Source: an uncultured Alphaproteobacteria bacterium
Lineage (GTDB): Bacteria; Pseudomonadota; Alphaproteobacteria; CAAHEQ01; UBA3637
Assembly (NCBI GenBank): GCA_947627155.1
Contig: CANQUX010000008.1
Span: 1-64,000 of the forward strand
Reading direction: 5' to 3'
Length of the DNA: 64,000 nt
Position 1 is the first letter of the stretch; every line of letters starts with the position of its first letter. The notes below the pieces were generated by a model. That model worked only from the letters and a program-made list of their open reading frames with translations. It made no database searches and was not told where the DNA came from. A program made the translations under genes and the position numbers. Below, piece after piece: positions 3,659 through 7,040 of this stretch.

Positions 3659-5398
3659 TTATTCCTCCGATTCGCTCAAATCAACAGTTTGCCGAATGCG
3701 CTTAATTTTTGATTTGGAAAACAAAGCTAACGTTTGCGCAATCACAGGTTCTTGAGATAATTCTTCCACTAACTGATTATGTCGCGCCGCCTTTTTTTCG
3801 GTTAATGTTTCTGCCGTGATGTCGTTTTTTTGTTGAATGCGCCAGTTTTCATTAGCTTTTGTTTTTAAAAATTTAATTAAATCAGCCCCCAAATGAGCAG
3901 GCGCTTCGGGCAAAATCAAACAAGTGAGAGTCAAATTTTCCAACGATTCAACCCGCAGATAATTTTCCAAATGATAAGCCAGTAATCGTTCGCCCGATTT
4001 TTTAACAAACGCAACCATTTCCGCAAAAGAATGAAATTGAGAATCCGGCAAATTATTTTGAGGCGTTGTTGTGTTGAACGAAGCGGTTATCGGTTGTACC
4101 ACCGGTTTTTGTTCCGAAGTTGTTTCGAACGGCACAGCCGGATGAGTCACCTGCGGCGCCGCCTGAACGGGAACGGACAATTTTTCGGGCGCGGATGGAG
4201 TGAAATGAACAGGTGCCGGATTCGGTTTTACCGGATTAGTTGAGATTCCTTTTTTTTTTATCTCTTCCACCAGCTGCGCCGGGGAAGGCAAATCAGCCGT
4301 ATAGGCCAGCCGAATCAACAGCATCTCCAACGTTTGCCACGGATTATCAGCCCGCCGAACTTCATCAAGCCCTTTGAGCAAAATTTGCCAAACCGCGGAT
4401 AATGTTCCCAGCGATAAAGTTTTTGCCGCCTCGGCACCGCGTTTGCGCACATTTTCGGGCATACTGACATCATCGGCAACCGACGGGGTAATTCGAACCC
4501 GTGTTAACCAATGCGTTAAATCAAGCATATCTTGCACCAAGGCAACCGAATCGGCTCCGATTTGACATTGCGCCTGTAAAAAATTTAACGCTTTTTCAAT
4601 TTCTCCTTGCAGGAGCGCTTCATATAAATCCAACAACGCCGATTTATCGCTTAACCCCATCATTTGCCGAACATTTTCGGCTTTTACGGACATATCGAAC
4701 TGCGTGAGTGCCTGATCCAACAAAGATAACGAATCCCGAACGGATCCTTCGCCTGCCCGCGCAATCAATTGTAATGCCTCCGGCTCGACAACGGCATTTT
4801 CCCGTTCGGCAATTTGTTTTAAATAGGCACTTAACACGTTTTCATCAACGCGTTTTAAATCAAACCGTTGACACCGTGATAAAATGGTGACCGGCACTTT
4901 TCGAATTTCGGTAGTGGCAAAAATAAATTTAATGCGTTCGGGCGGTTCTTCCAACGTTTTCAACAAGGCGTTAAAAGCCGCTTTGGAAAGCATATGCACT
5001 TCATCGATGATATATATTTTATAGCGCGCCGAAACAGGATTATATTTAGCCCCTTCAATAATTTCCCGCACGTTATCAACGCCGGTATTGCTGGCAGCAT
5101 CAATTTCAATCACATCAATATGCGAATCGGCCGCAATTTCCCGACAATGCTTGCATTGACCGCAGGGATTGGGTGTCATTTCCCCTTTGCCGTCAATGCC
5201 GATACAATTCAACCCTTTGGCGATAATTCGCGCAGACGTGGTTTTACCGATTCCCCGAATACCCGTCAACATATAAGCATTGGGCAAGCGATTTTGCTTA
5301 ATGGCGTTACTGACGGTTTGAACCAAAGCCTCCTGCCCGATTAAATCGTTAAATGTTTGCGGTCTGTATTTGCGCGCTAAAACGTGAGAGATTGTCAT
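3659..5398 (-). CDS. dnaX: DNA polymerase III subunits gamma and tau
   Basis: 579 residues. The clamp-loader motor that opens the sliding clamp and, in the tau form, ties polymerase cores to the helicase. The N-terminal AAA+ module shows Walker A (GIRGIGKTTSAR), a four-cysteine zinc module (C-x8-CGQCKHC), Walker B (IIDEVHML) and the sensor-1 ATTE motif; domain III follows to about residue 370. The C-terminal third is variable and linker-like up to about 450, then a tau-type domain. At codons 380-383 the coding strand has a run of ten A residues (4250-4259) exactly at the domain III/linker boundary, which probably makes a short gamma form (see separate entry). ATG 5398 has an AAAGGA site. Confidence 0.96.
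   Translation of the reverse strand: MTISHVLARKYRPQTFNDLIGQEALVQTVSNAIKQNRLPNAYMLTGIRGIGKTTSARIIAKGLNCIGIDGKGEMTPNPCGQCKHCREIAADSHIDVIEIDAASNTGVDNVREIIEGAKYNPVSARYKIYIIDEVHMLSKAAFNALLKTLEEPPERIKFIFATTEIRKVPVTILSRCQRFDLKRVDENVLSAYLKQIAERENAVVEPEALQLIARAGEGSVRDSLSLLDQALTQFDMSVKAENVRQMMGLSDKSALLDLYEALLQGEIEKALNFLQAQCQIGADSVALVQDMLDLTHWLTRVRITPSVADDVSMPENVRKRGAEAAKTLSLGTLSAVWQILLKGLDEVRRADNPWQTLEMLLIRLAYTADLPSPAQLVEEIKKKGISTNPVKPNPAPVHFTPSAPEKLSVPVQAAPQVTHPAVPFETTSEQKPVVQPITASFNTTTPQNNLPDSQFHSFAEMVAFVKKSGERLLAYHLENYLRVESLENLTLTCLILPEAPAHLGADLIKFLKTKANENWRIQQKNDITAETLTEKKAARHNQLVEELSQEPVIAQTLALFSKSKIKRIRQTVDLSESEE
4250..4259 (-). other. dnaX: A10 slippery run inside dnaX
   Basis: On the coding strand codons 380-383 read ATA AAA AAA AAA, a run of ten A. 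Gain of one A leads to TAA (complement of 4236-4238) after four further codons, giving about 387 residues; loss of one A leads to TAA (complement of 4228-4230) giving about 389 residues. Both possible shifts therefore end just after domain III, the size and place expected for a gamma subunit. No downstream stem is needed for transcriptional slippage on such a run, as is known for Thermus thermophilus dnaX. Confidence 0.7.
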
Positions 5399-5553: not shown

Positions 5554-6156
5554 TTATTGATTGTTTTCCTGCATATCTGAAACGGGAACGGATAAATCTT
5601 GCTTTAAAACGGAATCATCGGATAAAGCGGATTCCTCCGTTTCCTCTTTTTTCGGTACCGATCGTGATTTGCGCCGAATAATAAACGTTTTTTTCGGTGC
5701 TTTCTTTTCACTTTCGGGTGTTTCCTCGGTTTTCTTGCTTATTTCAACCGATTCGCTTTCCGCTTGAACCGTTCCTTCTTCCGATTTTTCTTCTTGTACC
5801 GCCGTTGAATGAATATCGGGAAGCGAATCGTCTTCCGTTTTATCGTCGTTGTTGGTTGTTGTGTTGGCGCGTTGTTCAATATTGTTGGTTCGCATAGCTT
5901 GTTCGTTGGCAATGGCAATACTTTGCATACGAAGATAATGATCGGCATATTGCATACATGTTTGTGCCAAAATTAAATCATTTTGAATTAAAGCATCTTT
6001 GGCATAAGCTTGATATTTTTCAAAAAGCTGCAAAGCCGTTCCATGCAATTTTCCCATGGGACCCGTGCTTTCCAAAGCCGTATTTCGCGTTAACATTGCT
6101 CTTGAATTCCGTCCGTTATAACGTCCGTTAAAGCGATTTTTCTGATTTTGTTTCAT
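5554..6156 (-). CDS. DUF4167 domain protein
   Basis: 200 residues. The N-terminal 90 residues match the alphaproteobacterial DUF4167 family: an Asn/Arg-rich start (NGRYNGRNSRA), then GKLHGTALQLFEKYQAYA and the helix containing MQYADHYLRM, which are the family's conserved blocks. The C-terminal half is acidic and low in complexity, rich in Glu, Ser and Thr, ending with a basic stretch (KKTFIIRRKSRSVPKK) and is probably disordered. Function in the family is unknown; the basic N-terminus suggests nucleic-acid or ribosome contact, which is inference. It lies directly upstream of dnaX in the same direction, 155 bases apart, with dnaX having its own candidate promoter. Ribosome site GAGGG precedes ATG 6156. 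Confidence 0.88.
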   Translation of the reverse strand: MKQNQKNRFNGRYNGRNSRAMLTRNTALESTGPMGKLHGTALQLFEKYQAYAKDALIQNDLILAQTCMQYADHYLRMQSIAIANEQAMRTNNIEQRANTTTNNDDKTEDDSLPDIHSTAVQEEKSEEGTVQAESESVEISKKTEETPESEKKAPKKTFIIRRKSRSVPKKEETEESALSDDSVLKQDLSVPVSDMQENNQ

Positions 6157-6290: not shown

Positions 6291-7040
6291 TTATTGGCAA
6301 TTTCCGCTCGCACACGGGGGAACAACCTGTCCTGCCGGCGCTTGAACAACGACCGGTCTGTTTTGAACATACGAAGCTTGTTGCTGCATCACAACAGGTT
6401 GTTGTTGCACATAAGCCGGAGCCCGTTCAACCATAACAGGTTGTTGAACAACAACCGGTTTTTGAACGACAACGGGTTGTTGAACAACAACCGGTTGACG
6501 AACCGTGATATCCCGATTGACCGTAATCGGACGTTCAACGGAAACCGGATATTGCCGCACGACCGGATATTGCACTTTAACCGGCGATTGTGTGTAAGAA
6601 ATGCTTGTTACCGACCCCGGGCAATTTTCACCGGCGGCACAAATACCGGCCGGTACCGGTTGTTGAGCGACAACTTCTGCCGGCAAAGGACCGGTCGGCT
6701 GTTGTAAAACAATCGGCTGATTCGGAATAACTGTTGCCTGCGGAACAGCAATCGGCGCAGCAACGGGAGCCGCAACAGGCATTGCCATTGGTGCTGCCAC
6801 CGGAGCAGCCGCGGGTGCTGCTGCGGCAGCTCCTGCAACCGGAATGGTTTTTTGTGATGTTTTCACAGAATTGTCAATCGGATCAAGAGCAACATAGCCG
6901 TCCATAATCCGTTCATTCTGTTTTTCATAGGTTGTTTCCGTTTTTGAAACAACTTTATCTGCTGCGATTGAAGTCATCGGAGCAATTAAAGCGCCGCAAA
7001 CGGCAACGAATGCAATTAAAGAAATGGATGTATTTTTCAT
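6291..7040 (-). CDS. secreted Pro/Val/Gln-repeat protein, unknown
   Basis: 249 residues. It starts with a signal peptide (SLIAFVAVCGALIAPM, cleavage near IAA-DK), so it is exported. Residues about 75-105 are an Ala/Pro run (AAAPAAAPVAAPMAMPVAAP). Residues about 165-240 are built of tandem variants of QQPVVVQ (QQPVVVQKPVVVQQPV and relatives). Two cysteine pairs occur: CAAGENC near residue 135 and CASGNC at the extreme C-terminus. No catalytic domain was recognised; the composition suggests an extended periplasmic or cell-wall spanning linker, or a surface protein. A GGAGG site precedes ATG 7040, and a perfect 15-bp palindrome lies 28 bases upstream of the start. Repeat-driven length differences between strains would be expected. 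Confidence 0.75.
   Translation of the reverse strand: MKNTSISLIAFVAVCGALIAPMTSIAADKVVSKTETTYEKQNERIMDGYVALDPIDNSVKTSQKTIPVAGAAAAAPAAAPVAAPMAMPVAAPVAAPIAVPQATVIPNQPIVLQQPTGPLPAEVVAQQPVPAGICAAGENCPGSVTSISYTQSPVKVQYPVVRQYPVSVERPITVNRDITVRQPVVVQQPVVVQKPVVVQQPVMVERAPAYVQQQPVVMQQQASYVQNRPVVVQAPAGQVVPPCASGNCQ

Follow-up and report, generated by a model that had tools for sequence, protein, structure and literature searches.

A conserved poly-A run in dnaX of an alphaproteobacterial order as a probable site of transcriptional slippage

In this study, we describe a run of ten A residues in the dnaX gene of an uncultured alphaproteobacterium, located in a 64-kb stretch of its DNA (the window), and relate it to the dnaX genes of the same order and class. 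Comparison of these sequences makes it probable that the run is a programmed slippage site for transcription, similar to that of Thermus, through which one gene would provide the short clamp-loader subunit gamma beside tau. When copying the template T10, RNA polymerase would generate transcripts that differ in their number of A, some with 10 and some with more or fewer. Those with 10 (or 10 ± 3n) would be translated into full-length tau, while all other numbers would place a TAA a few codons on, in either shifted frame, giving a gamma of 387-389 aa. Such a gamma would end right after the AAA+ and collar domains and would be without the tail to which polymerase and helicase are bound in other bacteria. 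Slippage itself and the tau:gamma ratio are what we infer from these features, and for gamma we assume, by analogy, the function that it has in other bacteria. The coordinates of the features are given in Table 1.

Table 1. Features of the dnaX locus (window positions)
Feature	Position	Strand	Evidence
dnaX, clamp-loader subunit tau, 579 aa in the zero frame	3659..5398	(-)	ORF; NCBIfam NF006585 PRK09111.1 4e-218; Pfam
A10 slippery run, codons 380-383 (ATA AAA AAA AAA)	4250..4259	(-)	sequence; homologous A9/A10 in relatives
TAA met with one A added (or two removed; equals the ribosomal -1 frame), predicted gamma of 387 aa	4236..4238	(-)	sequence
TAA met with one A removed (or two added), predicted gamma of 389 aa	4228..4230	(-)	sequence
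Domain III (collar), PF12169, residues 238-379; last domain retained in the predicted short product	4262..4687	(-)	Pfam
Tau C-terminal domain PF12362/DUF3646, residues 456-567; absent from the predicted short product	3698..4033	(-)	Pfam

On the coding (minus) strand, the context of the run is ...GGAAGAGAT(A)10 GGAATCTCAAC TAA TCCGG TAA..., read in the zero frame as ATA AAA AAA AAA GGA, that is I380 and K381-K383 followed by the Gly codon GGA. An uninterrupted run of at least nine A thus lies inside one open tau frame, and it adjoins the end of domain III, where the PF12169 match stops at residue 379. With one A added the reading continues as ...R N L N stop (387 aa), with one A removed as ...K E S Q L I R stop (389 aa), and the two stops follow 11 and 19 nt 3′ of the run, the arrangement of nearby stops in both other frames that characterizes the Thermus type. 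The preliminary description had reported the A10, both TAA codons, the three protein lengths and a position right after domain III; re-reading of the sequence returned the same coordinates and counts, and the Pfam match agrees with the position. A DUF4167 (PF13763) gene (5554-6156, minus strand) immediately precedes dnaX in the same orientation, and positions 6291-7040 (minus strand) encode a protein of 249 aa that looks secreted, contains PVV/QQP-rich repeats and matches no NCBIfam entry.

In our sample, the GTDB order of the window is represented by one family with 43 genomes, in 38 of which a dnaX gene spanning the linker could be read. Relatives without the run, or without its stops, had been named in the preliminary description as evidence against slippage; we found an A9 or A10 within 50 codons past domain III in 33 of the 38 genes, and the stops to be conserved in function. 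All 33 retain an open tau frame. In 28 of the 38 the run occupies identical codons, most commonly as GAC ATA AAA AAA AAC GGT TTA, with A9 in most relatives and A10 in the window. Where Ile precedes the lysines (I-K-K), it is encoded by ATA 22 times out of 23, although ATA accounts for 13% of the Ile codons of these genes. Runs of this length are concentrated in the 50 codons after domain III (36 in 5,550 nt), compared with a single one in the 58,686 nt elsewhere in the same genes. Five genomes have a degraded first site but carry an A9 or A10 about ten codons downstream, mostly as GCT CAA AAA AAA ACT GAA. Three genomes (L121, L122, L126) have both runs within a single linker, at a spacing of about ten codons, and are apparent intermediates of run relocation. 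A run that moves while its function is retained is what would be predicted from selection on the product and not on the peptide. The five members lacking the run (L120, L135, L136, L138, L139) have no A run of seven or more and, in a scan for slippery motifs, only isolated weak heptamers, and hence a gamma made by the slippage route is not indispensable in the order. The dnaX of a further genome (G040), at L140 (G040:C96:31000-33300), was left out of the comparison due to several frame changes and masked, unread bases; the assembly is 68% complete, and its quality is probably the cause. In two others of the same order (G003 and G021; assemblies 92% and 99% complete) a protein search did not find dnaX, likely owing to contig gaps.

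To describe the stops, one A was removed from or added to each run (n = 36) and the distance to the next stop was measured, with shuffled codons of the downstream linker as control. The median distance was 8 nt with one A removed and 3 nt with one A added, compared with 41 and 30 nt in the shuffles, and at 34 of the 36 sites of the order both shifted frames stop within 24 nt. The codons that supply these stops vary by genus (for example, GGT TTA yields TAA or TAG in the minus-one-A frame, and TCT AGC yields TAG in the plus-one-A frame), so that the stops are conserved in function and not inherited unchanged. Conservation of both stops, named as a check in the preliminary description, held in this functional sense. 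Since relatives are not independent, pooled p-values are inflated, and a test per lineage is safer: taking one representative of each lineage across the class (two for family f50; n = 16), both stops lie within 24 nt in 13 of 16, compared with 3.7 expected (Fisher p 6e-8). The two stops of the window gene alone are only mildly unusual (p about 0.04-0.06), and the weight of the case thus comes from conservation across relatives.

Transcriptional slippage has been described for dnaX of Thermus thermophilus, at an A9 run (Larsen et al. 2000; PMC1088944, PMC5009743), where two tRNA-Lys species were noted as an associated trait (PMC5009743). The window gene shares with Thermus a sense-strand A run in a single tau ORF, nearby stops in both other frames, a truncated gamma (here predicted) and two tRNA-Lys, the window genome having both anticodons, TTT (UUU) and CTT (CUU). 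It differs in that the run is A10 and lies at about 2/3 of the gene (7/8 in Thermus), in the alphaproteobacterial order and in that slippage is here what we infer.

The principal alternative, which we regard as unlikely, is that ribosomes shift to the -1 frame on A_AAA_AAA or A_AAA_AAC, or that tRNA-Lys slides on poly-A, to yield gamma as in E. coli, where A_AAA_AAG, an internal Shine-Dalgarno sequence and a stem-loop drive a programmed -1 frameshift in dnaX (PMC5009743). The likeness is considerable, with one gene, tau in the zero frame and gamma reached when the frame changes at a lysine-rich A run that follows domain III; moreover, slippery heptamers do lie in the right register inside the run, and a -1-frame stop is near at most sites (median 3 nt), including the window. 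Nevertheless, most sites do not use A_AAA_AAG, the heptamer that shifts strongly in E. coli, the window reading GGA after its lysine codons and the relatives mostly ATA AAA AAA AAC, and the run is longer than in E. coli. Nor did we find recognisable frameshift stimulators: among 33 relatives, the 60 nt downstream hold no conserved stem-loop (mean z -0.26), and upstream pairing of the Shine-Dalgarno type is not above background (mean -3.2 vs -3.2 kcal/mol). Across dnaX genes the runs occur in differing codon registers (frame 0, 1 or 2), which would not be expected of a heptamer, and two tRNA-Lys genes also set this genome apart from E. coli. Finally, conservation is equally strong for the stop of the other frame. 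A -1 ribosomal shift reaches only the plus-one-A frame, yet several genera have their tighter stop (5 nt) in the minus-one-A frame and the -1-frame stop 9-45 nt on, which favors transcriptional slippage. Ribosomes sliding on poly-A may still contribute. The earlier preference for a Thermus-like mechanism over the E. coli type, itself drawn from sequence, is thus supported by the stops in two frames, the missing conserved stimulators, the two tRNA-Lys and the avoidance of such runs elsewhere in the genome.

This avoidance also bears on whether the run might merely reflect composition. The whole 1.56-Mb genome contains 76 runs of at least nine A on both strands, four of them A10, and the window 5 A9 matches compared with 52 in dinucleotide shuffles. 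When the 51 longest non-overlapping window ORFs of at least 100 aa (54.8 kb) are scanned, no sense-strand A9+ appears apart from the one in dnaX, while permuting synonymous codons within genes gives an expectation of 7.3 ± 1.7; runs of A5-A8 in the same ORFs are at expectation or slightly over. Selection in this genome thus acts against runs of nine or more A, with dnaX as the exception. Nine A is the common slippage threshold, and avoidance of such runs has been described as the signature of slipping polymerases, to which replication slippage can add (PMC1088944). That A9+ is avoided while A5-A8 is not fits this signature for polymerases that slip at nine (PMC1088944). Avoidance of indels at replication could also make A9+ rare elsewhere, but would not explain its retention in dnaX. 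Chance and base composition were ruled out as the source of the pattern by the dinucleotide and synonymous shuffles, the comparison within genes and the codon-shuffled stops.

That protein constraint or base composition alone, a lysine-rich linker in an AT-rich genome, accounts for the run with no recoding at all is accordingly very improbable. The genome is indeed AT-rich (41% GC), lysine is common, and several other AT-rich families have lysine-rich linkers; however, other surveyed families, some of them equally AT-rich, mostly lack the run, and Marinicaulis, at 61% GC, has an A9 in the same place. Composition also fits poorly with 36 runs against one elsewhere in the genes, the preference for ATA, the relocation, the double stops and the isolation of the dnaX run among the coding sequences of the window. 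A phase-variable contingency tract, in which replication slippage would switch tau off in some cells, is the least plausible reading and barely merits consideration: a homopolymer as long as this one is prone to mutation in DNA, as is generally known (PMC1088944), but dnaX is expected to be essential, the open tau frames of all run-bearing genes of the order mean that frame-shifted alleles were not seen, and two adjacent stops would be needless. An assembly error in the homopolymer is unlikely as well, given that tau is open in every run-bearing relative and that A9/A10 recur in matching register.

Beyond the order, a linker A9+ is present in 1 of 71 surveyed alphaproteobacterial dnaX genes above 60% GC and in 25 of 38 below 50% GC, the latter from a set partly picked by pattern search. 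In a set independent of the pattern, covering 28 families outside f6, there was one run (A9), fifty codons downstream, and among 89 entries above 50% GC of another sample, in which some loci were first read in the wrong orientation and then redone, there was none. These counts indicate that the run is patchy across the class, and we rejected the idea of a universal trait of AT-rich Alphaproteobacteria, an A9 linker being found in only 1 of the 28 further families. On a DnaX tree (FastTree, with many weak forks), the trait changes at least 12-17 times, in a clustered manner, and the order of the window sits inside a run-rich clade. At one surveyed locus, L142 (G207:C212), the open frame extends upstream of DnaX by about 370 codons of low-complexity, E/K/T-rich content (a stop-to-stop frame of 1064 codons), perhaps an in-frame fusion or merely the open end of an upstream gene.

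Two families, f6 (L153, L155, L287, L291) and f139 (L159, L161), have a reversed layout, in which the zero frame meets a stop a few codons from the A9/A10 and the plus-one-A frame stays open for 378-558 nt, encoding PF12362 in L153, L155, L159 and L161 (1.5e-13 to 3.8e-27). Since the shifted frame holds its tail, tau in these families is expected to depend on slippage or frameshifting. The window dnaX has no zero-frame stop right after the run, its tau being one open frame. Two-ORF dnaX genes, mostly with A10, were reported from GeneTack predictions (Antonov et al. 2013; PMC3711429). They have A9/A10 at the gamma/tau boundary, as does the window, and f6 and f139 share their full layout; the window and its order differ from them in that the long form is the zero-frame product. 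One further interpretation, on which we are evenly divided, is that selection within the class keeps the gamma/tau switch even as the switch changes place, register and polarity, with runs moving along the linker and arising in several families and the default having flipped from tau to gamma in at least two families, beside the proteolytic route of Caulobacter. In Caulobacter crescentus, the short form of DnaX arises by partial ClpXP proteolysis (Vass and Chien 2013; PMC5422525). The window gene resembles it as an alphaproteobacterial dnaX with a long and a short form, here predicted, the difference being that those of Caulobacter come from proteolysis.

A search of mainly open-access literature returned no paper that describes slippage for dnaX of Alphaproteobacteria. 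The mechanism is already known; what appears to be undescribed is its use in this order, together with a site that moves and the occurrence of two layouts in one class. The need of bacteria for a short form of the clamp loader has been disputed. A site found across the order, moved and not lost in several genera and truncating in either frame, is an argument for selection on the short form in the order, and it would probably be a second route to that form in a class where ClpXP processing has been demonstrated for Caulobacter. Truncating slippage sites are hard to recognise by sequence comparison (PMC1088944), and conserved double stops together with site turnover offer a comparative test for them. 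If the switch is indeed kept by selection while its site turns over, alphaproteobacterial DnaX would represent a natural series of the birth, movement and loss of recoding sites.
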